Position numbers and translations under genes: made by a program. A stretch of 64,000 bases of DNA, from NCBI GenBank assembly GCA_946402705.1, contig CAMIXG010000001.1:186001-250000 (forward strand), written 5' to 3'. Numbering within the stretch: the stretch's first letter is position 1; every line of letters starts with the position of its first letter. The stretch comes from an uncultured Tissierellia bacterium. GTDB lineage: Bacteria; Bacillota; Clostridia; Tissierellales; Tissierellaceae. The notes beneath the pieces are model-generated. The model was not told where the DNA came from. It searched no databases and saw only the letters and a program-made list of their open reading frames with translations. Positions 44,547-50,720 of the stretch are shown here, piece by piece.

Positions 44547-46091
44547 TTACTTAGCGTATTCAATAGCCCTAGTTTCTCGAATGACATTTACTTTGATTTG
44601 TCCTGGGTAATCTAATTCTTGTTCTATTCTATTACCTATGTTTCTTGCCATATTTACGATTTCACTTTCAGATACATCTTCAGGTTTTACAAGTATTCTA
44701 ACTTCTCTACCTGCCTGTATTGCAAAAGATTGCTCTACTCCTTCAAATGAGTTTGCAATTCTTTCTAAAGTTTCTAAACGTTTGATATATAGCTCTAAAG
44801 TTTCTCTTCTAGCTCCTGGTCTAGCTGCCGATATAGCATCTGCTGCCTGAACTAATATAGCTTCTATTGTAGATGGTTCAACATCACCATGATGTGCTTC
44901 TATACCATGGATAACCTCTTCCGACTCACCATATTTTCTGGCTAAGTCTACACCTATCTCAACATGCGGTCCTTCCACTTCATGGTCTATTGATTTACCT
45001 ATATCATGAAGTAGTCCTGCTCTTTTTGCTATTTTTTCATTAGCTCCAATTTCAGCTGCCATCATACCTGCTAAATGTGCAACCTCTATAGAATGTTTTA
45101 ATACATTCTGACCATAAGATGTTCTATATTTTAATCTACCTAGATACTTGATAAGTTCTGGATGAAGACCATGAACATTTGTATCAAATGCTGCTTGTTC
45201 TCCTTCTTCTTTTATCATAAGATTAACTTCATCTTCAGCCTTTTTAACCATTTCTTCTATTCTAGCAGGATGAATTCTACCATCTACGATTAGTTTTTCT
45301 AGAGATATTCTAGCAACCTCGCGACGAATAGGATTAAATCCTGATAAAACTACTGCTTCTGGAGTGTCATCTATTATTAAGTCAATTCCTGTTAAAGTTT
45401 CAAGAGCCCTTATATTTCTACCCTCTCTACCTATAATTCTACCTTTCATCTCATCGTTTGGTAAATTTACAACTGTAACAGTTGTTTCTGCAACATGGTC
45501 GGATGCATATCTTTGAATTGCTGTAGATATAATTTCCCTAGCTTTCTTATCTGCTTCTTCTCTAGCTTTGCTTTCCATCTCTTTTATCATTATTGCTGAT
45601 TCTTGTACTATTTCTTTTTCAATATTACTTAGTAATAAATTTTTAGCCTCTTCACTAGTAAGACCAGATAATTTTTCCAACTGTTCAAGCTGTTCTTTAT
45701 ATATATCATCTAGCTTAGTTTCTCTAAGATTTAGTTCTTCTTCTTTAGAACTTAGATTTTCTTCCTTCTTATCTATCATCTCAGATCTACGATCTACAGT
45801 TTCCTCTTTAGTTATAATTCTTTTTTCAAAATTTTGCAATTCTAGCTTGCTCTTTTTGATTTCATTTTCTGCTTCGGTTCTTCTCATATGAACTTCTTCT
45901 TTAGCTTCTAATAGTAGTTCTTTTTTCTGAGATTCTCCTTCTCTAGCTGCATTTTCTATTGTTCTCTTAGCTATTTCTTCAGCGCTGTTTAGTTTTCCTT
46001 CAGCTATATTCTTTCTTATAATAAATCCTATAATTATTCCAACTAACGCGCCAATAACTACAAATAGTATTTCGATTTCTAACACCTCCAT
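44547..46091 (-). CDS. rny: ribonuclease Y
   Basis: KH-domain [33 protein letters not shown] domain [21 protein letters not shown]. Confidence 0.97.
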
Positions 46092-46221: not shown

Positions 46222-46875
46222 TCACTCGTCATTCTCACTAATAATACTTGTACCATTCTCCATTTTTACAGTATATGAGGTGTTTCCAATAGATGCCAAA
46301 AAATTGTCATGTGTAACCATTATAATTTGTCTATCAAATAAATCTGAATTCTGTTTCAAAAAGTCTGAAACATTATAAATATACTCTCCACTAACATGTT
46401 TTGCAGGCTCATCTAGTATTAGAGGCCCTAAGATTTTTGGCCTATGGGTTTCTAAAAATGCTATCCTAAGGGCAAGAGAGACAACATCTATAACCCCTCC
46501 ACCCTTAGAGTGCTCTGGTTCTAATTTTACTTCCTTGCCCTCCATCTGAGTTACTATATAAAATTTAGCACTGGGTCTGCCCCTAAGTTCTTCTATTTCT
46601 ATCTTAAAATCCATTTCTTCTTCAAATACAAACTGAAGACACTTACTGACTATGGTTTCAATTTGAACCTTGGCTTGATTCCTAGCATATTCGGAAGTTT
46701 TCTGAAAGAGTATATTGACCTTTTCTATAAGTTCTACATTTAACTTTAGCTCTGTAATCTGTTTTTCATTAGACTCAATTCTTTCTTCCACCTTTTCCTT
46801 TTTGCCATTTTCTCTAGCCAAGTATAGTTTAGAATCATCTATTACTTTCTTTAATTCTTCTAAATTACTTATCAT
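46222..46875 (-). CDS. C-terminal-half Rad50/SbcC-like ATPase
   Basis: Coiled-coil N-terminus then HSKGGGVIDVVSLALRIAFLE (signature-like), LGPLILDEPAKHVS (Walker B/D-loop), IIMVTHDN (H-loop). Confidence 0.85.
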   Translation of the reverse strand: MISNLEELKKVIDDSKLYLARENGKKEKVEERIESNEKQITELKLNVELIEKVNILFQKTSEYARNQAKVQIETIVSKCLQFVFEEEMDFKIEIEELRGRPSAKFYIVTQMEGKEVKLEPEHSKGGGVIDVVSLALRIAFLETHRPKILGPLILDEPAKHVSGEYIYNVSDFLKQNSDLFDRQIIMVTHDNFLASIGNTSYTVKMENGTSIISENDE

Positions 46876-46879
46876 ACTA

Positions 46880-47122
46880 TCACCCTATTAAATCTTTAGG
46901 TAAATTATTATTCGCCTCATTAAATAAGTCTTCTATCTCAGTGGATAGTTTTTCTATTTCATTTTCTAAATCTTCTGGCCTTATATTTAATTTATCTAGT
47001 TCTGCAACTATTTCTTTCTCTTGTTTTTCTAACTGCTCAAGTCTAGCTTCAGCTTGATATTTTAAACTTTTAGCCTTGTCCAAATCTTTTTTTAATTCAT
47101 TTAATCTATCTTCATAGTTCAT
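46880..47122 (-). CDS. small coiled-coil protein between the two ATPase halves
   Basis: 80 aa almost entirely heptad-like; own GGAGG SD; overlaps the upstream gene end. Confidence 0.75.
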   Translation of the reverse strand: MNYEDRLNELKKDLDKAKSLKYQAEARLEQLEKQEKEIVAELDKLNIRPEDLENEIEKLSTEIEDLFNEANNNLPKDLIG

Positions 47123-48563
47123 AATTTTCCTCCAAAAATTTACTCATGACACCTTGCACATGTTCATGGCTGATTTTACTTAAACATAAAGGACAAGTTT
47201 CTGCCTTTTCAAGCAAAGCTCCATACTCTTTAAGTATTTTATCTATCTCTAGTTCTCTTTCTTTTAAATATTTGCTTCCAAGTTTCCTACTCTCTGTATT
47301 TGATAGATAGGCTTGCCTTAGATTTATGAGTTTCTCCGTAAGCATTTTCTTACTCTCTAACTTGTCTAAACCTTTAGAAACACCATCTAGCTTTACAAAT
47401 TTTTCTATATAGACCTCACCATTGGATAGACTGGTCTTATTGTCCTTATATAATTTTTCCAGCATACATAGCTGCCTATATTTATCAATTTGTTTATTTA
47501 AAAGCTCAGAATTTATTTTTTCTATATTTTTAAACTTAGAAACTATCTCTACTGATTTCTTTTTCTCACTAGCCAAATTTTTAAGTTGGACATCTTTTAA
47601 ACTTAAAAATTTTACCCTATCTATTAAATTTTCCACTGCTCCAGTTTTTTCTAGTGAAGTATCTAAGTTTTTACATTTGGATAATATATCCTCCTGAAGT
47701 TTTTTACCCTCTATATTTTCTAAGGTTTTTACTTGTAAGTTTTGTAGATTACTAGTTCTATAGATTTTAAGTTCTAGATCCTTCATTTCACTTTCTAGTT
47801 TTTCTATAGACTTTAATTTATCTAACGTTTCCAAGTTTTTATTTTTTAAGTCTACATTTTCCCTATTAGCTTTTTCCAAGTCTTCCAGTCTTGCCCTTAG
47901 TTTTTGTTTTTCTTCTATCTTGATGTAAATCAAGTCCAATTTCTCTATAGATCTACTAAGCTTTTCCAAATAGTCATATGACTTTAACTCTTCTTCCAAA
48001 GTCTGATTATCTGCACTCAAAGCATTTAGTTTAATATTTAGATTTCGATTATCCTTTAAACTTTCCTTAAGAGCATCATCTATAATATTAGCACCTACTA
48101 ACCTGCCTATAGAACTAGCTTTTACAGAAGGTTTTTCCGATATTAAAAATGGACCTTCCAATTGCTCTGCAAGATTTATACTCCTTGATTCTTTTTGATC
48201 AAGCTCTAACTTATCTATCCCTATAGCCTGACTTACCTCAAGTGGAACTCCGCTTCCAAAACCTTCATAGGTTTCTTTTTCTTCTCCATTATAGATGTTG
48301 TATTGATTTTTACTCTTATCTCTATATCTTTCAACCCTTACTCCATTATTAAGTGAGATAGTAACACTACAACTATCTTCTCCATCTCTCATAAAATAAT
48401 CTCCAAGTGGCTCATTATATAAAACCCATTTTATCCCTCTAAGAACTGATGTCTTACCACTATCTGAAGGTCCAACTATTATATTTAACTTGTTATCAAA
48501 TTTTAAAACTGTATTTTTATGAGACTGGAAATTTTTAAGGGCAACCTCCGTTATATATTTCAC
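47112..48563 (-). CDS. N-terminal-half Rad50/SbcC-like ATPase with terminal zinc hook
   Basis: VALKNFQSHKNTVLKFDNKLNIIVGPSDSGKTSVLRGIKWVLYNEP Walker A; long coiled coil; AETCPLCLSKI 27 residues from the C-terminus. Confidence 0.88.
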   Translation of the reverse strand: MKYITEVALKNFQSHKNTVLKFDNKLNIIVGPSDSGKTSVLRGIKWVLYNEPLGDYFMRDGEDSCSVTISLNNGVRVERYRDKSKNQYNIYNGEEKETYEGFGSGVPLEVSQAIGIDKLELDQKESRSINLAEQLEGPFLISEKPSVKASSIGRLVGANIIDDALKESLKDNRNLNIKLNALSADNQTLEEELKSYDYLEKLSRSIEKLDLIYIKIEEKQKLRARLEDLEKANRENVDLKNKNLETLDKLKSIEKLESEMKDLELKIYRTSNLQNLQVKTLENIEGKKLQEDILSKCKNLDTSLEKTGAVENLIDRVKFLSLKDVQLKNLASEKKKSVEIVSKFKNIEKINSELLNKQIDKYRQLCMLEKLYKDNKTSLSNGEVYIEKFVKLDGVSKGLDKLESKKMLTEKLINLRQAYLSNTESRKLGSKYLKERELEIDKILKEYGALLEKAETCPLCLSKISHEHVQGVMSKFLEENYEL

Positions 48564-49546
48564 TTTATTTCCATCTCCCTCATTTGTATTTCAGCTATCC
48601 TTCTCAGGGCTTCCTTTCTAACCTCTTCTTCAAAATTATCTAGATTGGAAACTTCCAGCAATATATCATTTATATCCATTTTTTCAAAATCCAAAGACTC
48701 ATCTATAGTTTGCTTAAACTCAAATAATCTTTCTCCCTTAAATACTGCATTCTCCATTTTTTCCCTATCTAAAACTTCTTCTCCTGGTTTAGCGCATTTA
48801 AGCTGGATACTTTTAATATCTATGCCTTTTTCATTCAAGTCCATCATTATAATTTCAGGCCTTCTCTTAAGTTCTGCTAAAGAATTACTTACCCTAGCCA
48901 AGGATCCTGGATTTATAAAGTATTTTCCATCTATATTTATGATTCCAAATCCACTATGATAATGTCCACATAGGGTTATATCTGCTGGTGTATCTTTTAT
49001 TTCATCTATAACTGTATGATTCACAGTTTTTATAAAATGTTTTTCTAAAAGCAAGCCATGAACCATATGAATAGAATAATCTACTTCTTCTAAGATTTCT
49101 TTAGGCTTATAATATTCTGCCCTTCGCTCCCCATCTATACCAAATATATAGGGTTGACCAGTTAATTGGGCTTTTATTCCATCTTTTTCTAAAACTATCA
49201 AATCATTTGCATTTATAAGTTTTATAGTTCCAATTGTATTTAAAAGACTTATGACAGTTCTATTTATAGTTTTTGGATTATGTCCATATATATCATGATT
49301 ACCACTTATCATATAAATAGGTTTATCAATTTCCATTAAAATTTTTACAAATCTATTTACTATGGAAACAGATACATCTGGTCTATCTAATAAGTCTCCT
49401 CCATGAAAGACAAAGTCTACATTTTCCCTTATTGCAATATCTCTTATTTCCTTAAACTTCTCCTCTATAGAATCTACAAATATATCCTTTCTATTTGCAG
49501 GATTATTTCCCCTTATATGTGTATCTGTAAAAAATAAAATTTTCAT
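48560..49546 (-). CDS. SbcD/Mre11-like metallophosphoesterase
   Basis: FFTDTHIRG, HGGDLLDRPD, ISGNHDIYG, CGHYHSGF, NPGSLAR motifs; 4-nt overlap with the ATPase. Confidence 0.92.
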   Translation of the reverse strand: MKILFFTDTHIRGNNPANRKDIFVDSIEEKFKEIRDIAIRENVDFVFHGGDLLDRPDVSVSIVNRFVKILMEIDKPIYMISGNHDIYGHNPKTINRTVISLLNTIGTIKLINANDLIVLEKDGIKAQLTGQPYIFGIDGERRAEYYKPKEILEEVDYSIHMVHGLLLEKHFIKTVNHTVIDEIKDTPADITLCGHYHSGFGIINIDGKYFINPGSLARVSNSLAELKRRPEIIMMDLNEKGIDIKSIQLKCAKPGEEVLDREKMENAVFKGERLFEFKQTIDESLDFEKMDINDILLEVSNLDNFEEEVRKEALRRIAEIQMREMEIK

Positions 49547-49596
49547 AAATACTTCCTCTTTCTTAACTTAGAATACCTACTCCTATATAATCTCAT

Positions 49597-49632
49597 AAAA
49601 ATATGCCTAAATCTACATTTAGGCATATTTTT
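49597..49632 (-). terminator. intrinsic terminator after recA
   Basis: AAAAATATGCCTAAAT/ATTTAGGCATATTTTT. Confidence 0.85.
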
Positions 49633-49646
49633 ATATTTATTTATTT

Positions 49647-50720
49647 TTATTTTTCGTCTTTTTTATCTTCTTTTTTCTCTTTTTCAATTATTTCTCCAGT
49701 TTCTGGTACAACTGTTTGTCCATCATCTGGTATTAAATTATTAGCCACTCTTATTTTATATTCAATTTCATTTGCTATCTCTGGATTTTCAACTAGGAAA
49801 TCTTTAGAATTTTCCCTTCCTTGTCCTAGTCTATGTTCTCCATAACTATACCAAGAACCAGCCTTATCTACTATTCCACTATTAACTCCAACATCTAAAA
49901 TATTTCCCTCTCTAGATATTCCTTCTCCATACATTATGTCAAACTCAGCAGTTTTAAAAGGAGGAGCAACCTTATTTTTTACAACTCTTATTCTAGTTCT
50001 ATTTCCTATCATTTGGTCCCCTTGTTTAAGAGTTTCTATTCTTCTTATATCCATTCTAACACTGGCATAGAATTTTAAGGCTCTACCACCAGTTGTTGTT
50101 TCAGGGCTTCCAAACATAACTCCAACTTTTTCCCTAAGTTGGTTTATAAATATTATAGTTGCATTTGATTTGTTAACTGCTCCAGCAAGTTTTCTAAGAG
50201 CCTGTGACATCAATCTAGCTTGAAGACCAACATGGCTATCTCCCATTTCTCCTTCTATCTCAGCCTTAGGTACTAGGGCTGCTACAGAGTCTATTACTAG
50301 TAAATCAACTGCACCACTTCTAACTAATGCCTCTGCTATCTCAAGGGCTTGTTCTCCTGTATCTGGTTGGGATACTATTAGGTTTTCTATATCCACACCT
50401 AGTTTTTTCGCATATGTTGGGTCAAGGGCATGCTCTGCATCTATAAATGCTGCTATACCTTCTTTTTGGGCTTCTGCTATAACATGTAGTGTAACTGTAG
50501 TTTTACCAGAGGATTCTGGTCCATAAATCTCTATTATTCTTCCTCTTGGCAGACCACCTAATCCTAGTGCTATATCTAAATCTAAAGCTCCCGTAGGAAT
50601 AACTTCTAAATTTAGTTTTGCACCTTCTCCAAGTCTCATTATTGAGCCTTTACCAAATTGTTTTTCTATTTGACTTAAAGCCAAGTCAACGGCTTTTTGT
50701 TTTTCTTCTAATTCACTCAT
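49647..50720 (-). CDS. recA: recombinase RecA
   Basis: [58 protein letters not shown]. Confidence 0.98.

Follow-up and report, generated by a model that had tools for sequence, protein, structure and literature searches.

Four minus-strand open reading frames were found in the window, the whole stretch of 64,000 nucleotides of uncultured Tissierellia DNA that was analysed, each where an earlier sequence-only reading had placed it. They encode a 328 aa nuclease related to Mre11/SbcD (positions 48560..49546), the 483 aa N-half of a Rad50-like ATPase, made up of an N-lobe, a long coil and a terminal zinc hook (47112..48563), an 80 aa coiled-coil linker subunit (46880..47122), and the 217 aa C-half of the ATPase, made up of a short coil and a C-lobe (46222..46875). 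The N-half gene has a GTG start codon and overlaps the stop codon of the nuclease gene, and the ribosome-binding site described for the linker (GGAGG-AAAATT-ATG) was seen within the terminal part of the N-half coding sequence. On the same strand, the conserved neighbours are recA upstream (49647..50720; Pfam RecA, 1.7e-143) and rny, which encodes RNase Y, downstream (44547..46091; Pfam RNase_Y_N, 3.4e-63). An 18-pair stem-loop with a T-rich stem (49595-49634) lies between recA and the nuclease gene; read on the plus strand it resembles a terminator, and it may act in both directions. The four-gene module may have its own promoter.

The nuclease matched Pfam Metallophos (5e-16), and its profile matches were to calcineurin-like phosphoesterases and Mre11, the latter in the PDB. 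Nine residues (D8, H10, D51, N83, H84, D85, H163, H195 and H197) are invariant in 23 relatives, and correspond to those that line the Mre11 active site; the Mre11 phosphodiesterase motifs of a two-metal active site are present. With the SbcD model TIGR00619 the protein scored 33.8 bits, below the curated cut-off of 77.65.

The motifs that had been assigned to the two ATPase halves were all recovered, with key residues invariant or nearly so in 53 to 57 relatives. In the N-half, G31, D34, G36 and K37 of Walker A (GPSDSGKT; 48450..48473, minus strand) are invariant in 53 relatives, as are C457, P458 and C460 of the CPLC near the C-terminus, a zinc-hook half site (47184..47195, minus strand). The C-half, compared across 57 relatives, carries on the same strand an ABC signature-like motif (SKGGG; 46495..46509) that is without the usual SGGE form and in which GGG is invariant, a Walker B motif (LILDEP; 46405..46422) with invariant D155 and E156, and an invariant H-loop histidine, H189 (46309..46311). 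With the Q-loop (Q134) beside Walker A in the N-half, the motif set of a Rad50-type ABC head is complete across the two proteins.

The N-half matched Pfam AAA_23 (1.9e-11) and PHROG 16465 (2.8e-66), and when a profile of its relatives was used as the query, the top match in the PDB was the Rad50 N-lobe (1.5e-11), with the Rad50 hook structure 1l8d also found (8.8e-5). The C-half matched PHROG 15167 (4.8e-59), and its PDB search had the Rad50 C-lobe on top (3qkr_B, 7.5e-7; also 1ii8_B). The proposal of a split Rad50 accompanied by an Mre11-like nuclease is borne out by these searches, which place the N-half on the N-lobe and hook and the C-half on the C-lobe. An AF2 model of the N-half (mean pLDDT 82, from 53 alignment rows) consists of a head lobe and then helices between about residues 160 and 454, after which come the CPLC turn and a brief final helix, and Rad50 ranked first when this model was searched with Foldseek. 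The Pfam hook score of the single N-half protein was below the cut-off, and it is the terminal CxxC and the profile match to 1l8d that identify a zinc hook where the coil ends. In 115 of 118 loci with separate parts, the N-half has a CxxC no more than 40 aa from its C-terminus (median 21 aa), and the other three have interrupted N-half genes. In L042, L128 and L173 the N-half gene is broken within the head or the coil, which may reflect either misassembly or a genuine break. The closest solved relatives of both halves are archaeal Rad50 proteins from Pyrococcus and Methanocaldococcus (1ii8, 3qkr and 3av0), and the Pyrococcus heads 1ii8 and 3qkr were crystallised as separate N and C chains (A and B). 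Native archaeal Rad50, unlike the split set, is a single chain whose ascending and descending arms match.

In the textbook view, Rad50 and SbcC need one long chain that doubles back to bring the two lobes together. Here the lobes were not found joined in one polypeptide by an equal-armed antiparallel coil, and are encoded by separate genes in all lineages seen apart from one family, f71. In the window the adjoining reading frames overlap by a few bases, as might be seen in a broken sbcC, whether a pseudogene, an assembly error or a programmed-frameshift gene. The chance that this is the explanation is practically negligible. The N-half/linker and linker/C-half junctions of 73 loci, mostly overlapping or within 20 bases, occur in each of the three frame offsets and with each of the three stop codons, which rules out programmed frameshifting and sequencing error as the general cause. 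The same separate parts recur, well in excess of chance, in bacterial, viral and further genome loci, the halves lie up to ~1.1 Mb apart, and dN/dS, estimated pairwise from close pairs, is low in every part (nuclease, 0.05-0.14; N-half, 0.11-0.21; C-half, 0.026-0.10; linker, 0.025-0.066 where computable). Pseudogene, assembly error and frameshift were rejected on the unlinked halves, the junction frames and dN/dS, and the first two of these also uphold the earlier claim that the gene breaks are real. The strong purifying selection on the 80 aa linker is that of a real gene, as judged from sequence. The locus is also not a lone broken copy among intact relatives, the outcome that would have told against the sequence-only reading, as the single-chain forms found are a nested, coil-less derivative in one family.

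Close homologues of the C-half were found in 38 of 59 other genomes in the relatives set, at loci where nuclease, N-half, linker and C-half lie between recA and rny and parts are missing only at contig ends or at gaps in the N-half gene. The C-half was also found in 65 of 399 sampled Bacillota genomes (~16%), representing 45 genera, and loci from these carry the same parts. No match was obtained when the C-half was used as a single-protein query against genome contigs, and an alignment query of the C-half against the contigs of named genomes matched 304 stretches. Among the best 80 loci of these, 64 have four separate open reading frames and 52 have the order recA, nuclease, N-half, linker, C-half, rny. 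Genera with the split set include Tissierella, Peptoniphilus, Anaerosphaera, Thermosediminibacter, Fonticella and Halanaerobacter. The order N-half, linker, C-half is kept at most loci, but in some relatives the linker and C-half do not follow it or do not even share a locus. The recA neighbourhood may reflect mere shared descent. The split set extends well beyond a single locus, to many anaerobic Firmicutes and to phages of various kinds.

Acetivibrio mesophilus, Pseudobacteroides cellulosolvens, a Herbivorax strain and relatives carry the C-half gene apart from the other parts. In the three loci that were read closely, this gene comes after a folD-like gene, with rny next in two of them (genes named by sequence inspection). 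Each of these genomes has exactly one C-half and one place with an N-half, which in Herbivorax consists of two overlapping matches in one frame, and the N-half sits in a cluster of nuclease, N-half and linker at another locus. In Pseudobacteroides, the two halves are on the same contig, ~1.09 Mb apart. As the sole N-half and the sole C-half are unlinked, the ATPase in these genomes, if it works at all, is built from two chains that assemble in trans.

SbcCD of Escherichia coli (PMC6265447) combines the same Mre11-type nuclease with a Rad50-type ABC ATPase that has a coil and zinc hook, whereas the ATPase of the split set is made of three polypeptides. When scored with the SbcC model TIGR00618, split N-halves reached at most ~38 bits, whereas canonical SbcC proteins of Bacillota mostly exceeded 100. 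The split set was found in 38 of the 59 relatives, canonical SbcC in 16, both in none and neither in 5. In 398 Bacillota genomes, where canonical SbcC was called at E <= 1e-15, the C-half was found in 64, SbcC in 173 and neither in 164, with both in only 3 where ~28 would be expected (Fisher 1e-13, uncorrected for shared ancestry). In two of these three genomes (G155 and G444), the split copies are phage-like with the nuclease downstream of the C-half, and the third (G236) has a weak SbcC match (3.5e-16). The near-mutual exclusion suggests that the two systems do the same job and supports the replacement of SbcCD, despite the many genomes with neither; the split set probably replaces SbcCD in these bacteria. 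This would explain the apparent lack of SbcCD in many anaerobes, including relatives of Tissierella and Peptoniphilus.

The N-half, linker and C-half were also recognised as phage protein families (PHROG 16465, 18563 and 15167; 1.4e-8 for the window's linker), which are listed separately as 'exonuclease', unknown and 'ATPase' with no link stated between them. In 59 viral contigs carrying a C-half, a separate N-half was found in nearly all and a detectable linker in most, and in 4 the nuclease is fused to the N-half with the C-half separate. Bacillus phage vB_BboS-125 (L031) carries genes for the N-half, an AP2-domain protein, the linker and the C-half, together with the nuclease. The latter is a 326 aa Mre11-like open reading frame (NC_048735; L031:7022-8002), unannotated, shortly after the split ATPase genes. 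Overlapping genes for the N-half, nuclease, a linker-like protein and the C-half are present in Microcystis phage Mvi-JY20, in which the linker-like reading frame was not matched by the linker profile. All four parts are found in a 485 kb uncultured phage, and in Microbacterium phage Magritte the N-half and C-half genes are ~40 kb apart. Several viral contigs have DnaE- or DnaG-like replication genes (named by sequence inspection) between the parts. This placement fits a part for the phage copies in recombination and replication of the phage, comparable to that of gp46/47 in phage T4.

Genes related to AP2-domain endonucleases lie between the N-half and linker genes in three phages (L031, L190 and L207). 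Genes of other types also sit between the N-half and linker in phages, so that a homing-endonuclease insertion as the source of the split, of which the AP2-type genes might be a trace, is a guess. A ~100 aa open reading frame occupies this position in a group of similar viral contigs (L182-L186, L188, L189, L191, L193, L194, L196 and L227).

An alternative is a Lamassu- or AriA-like defence system, anti-phage or mobile, in which an SMC-like ATPase senses DNA ends and a nuclease kills; the copies on phages and plasmids would favour it. PADLOC returned weak ABC-ATPase matches, of the N-half to AriA and LmuB (~2e-12) and of the C-half to LmuB (2e-9), and found no matching effector of the dedicated type that goes with such an ATPase. 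However, the nuclease resembles Mre11 and has every catalytic residue, the chromosomal place beside recA is fixed over whole families, the split set is anticorrelated with SbcC, and the phage copies sit among the phages' own replication genes, all of which make a defence system very unlikely.

Fusions of the parts were found in several lineages. In six genomes of family f71 (L104, L105, L106, L146, L148 and L149), nuclease, N-lobe and C-lobe form a single chain of ~690-780 aa, and two further f71 loci (L152 and L153) have two genes, for the nuclease and for a coil-less ATPase of 373-375 aa that joins the N- and C-lobes. The long coil is absent from the f71 proteins and loci inspected, and neither a CxxC hook nor a linker was seen in them. 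In an AF2 model of the f71 fusion, the nuclease was good and the ATPase poor, so that head assembly is not argued from this model, and the top Foldseek matches were Mre11. The nuclease tree, rooted for drawing only and with uncertain long branches for the phages, places f71 within the split clade and the phage-like copies outside it. Mre11/Rad50 fusions have been reported from Mimivirus, a Clostridium kluyveri plasmid and elsewhere (PMC3175470); as in the phage and f71 fusions, their nuclease and ATPase form a single polypeptide. The differences are that f71 is without coil and hook, and that the phage fusions of nuclease and N-half keep a separate C-half. A word search of this 2011 paper returned no mention of a split ATPase (PMC3175470).

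The fusions of Mre11 with the N-half in phages, and with both the N- and C-lobes in f71, point to the parts being components of a single machine. They also bear on a further alternative, namely that the ATPase is a recombination mediator of the RecF/RecN type whose partner is a phosphodiesterase and not an end-processing nuclease. The C-half weakly matches RecN and SMC_N, and recA adjoins the locus, as such a mediator might lead one to expect. However, this alternative is highly improbable, since the best structural-database matches are the Rad50 lobes and zinc hook, the catalytic residues of the nuclease are invariant, and nuclease-ATPase fusions recur in several lineages.

The four genes are thus best read as encoding a four-subunit DNA-end-processing complex of the Mre11-Rad50 (SbcCD) type in which Rad50 naturally comes in three pieces, and we put the probability of this at roughly 0.82. 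The motifs, conservation, splitting, unlinked halves and near-exclusivity with SbcC support it at the level of sequence, whereas the stoichiometry, the geometry of the arm, the activity of the nuclease and the biological role are inferred. The N-half, contributing Walker A and the Q-loop, and the C-half, contributing the signature, Walker B and H-loop, would form one ABC head. By comparison with Rad50, two such heads would dimerise on ATP and gate a dimer of the Mre11-like nuclease. The arm, with the CxxC half of a zinc hook at its end, would come from the N-half alone, hooks would pair through zinc as in Rad50, and the linker would be an obligatory coiled-coil subunit. The complex would probably clip blocked or hairpin DNA ends, as SbcCD does, before RecA loading and recombination. 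As the split set is predicted to work like Mre11-Rad50 but lacks one of the features that define SbcCD/Rad50, the single chain, it would be a variant and not a plain member. Searches of open-access papers, which are only part of the literature, turned up no account of Rad50 or SbcC in split form. The split and coil-less forms are natural experiments on long-standing questions, namely the purpose of the coil and hook, and whether the lobes must be covalently joined for the ATP cycle to run.

The arm of such a complex would differ from that of Rad50. In the 118 loci, the N-half is mostly ~360 to 530 aa, the linker 77-106 aa and the C-half 211-233 aa, with no correlation between N-half and linker length (r = 0.005). 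As the linker and the C-half coil together are shorter than the N-half coil and do not scale with it, the arm is not an equal-armed antiparallel coil as in Rad50. Either the N-half coil folds back, or more than one linker binds, or the arms of two complexes pair. The linker is 51-68% identical in most bacterial relatives and 31-38% in the three most distant, with a conserved hydrophobic spacing of the coiled-coil type. Its most likely place is on the N-half arm close to the hook, where it would replace part of the missing descending strand.

The main alternative, less likely but deserving of weight, is that the linker is not in the arm and is a free regulator or adaptor, for example for DNA ends or RecA, that binds the head or the nuclease. 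A linker length that stays at 77-106 aa no matter how long the N-half is would suit this, as would a linker that travels with the nuclease and N-half in some genomes and with the C-half in some phages. However, the linker's hydrophobic residues are conserved at coiled-coil spacing, and no linker was seen in f71, which lost the coil and hook. A more tentative and rather doubtful reading is that the arm is the N-half alone, highly variable in length, with the linker of constant length serving as a detachable clasp, the split being functional, ancient and common to phages and bacteria. Such a complex could open or assemble stepwise on DNA, a gate that is absent from single-chain Rad50. In one phage locus with a very short N-half (290 aa), two small open reading frames of 76 and 77 aa, at least one of them a coiled coil, are located at the usual place of the single linker (L223:6500-6960).
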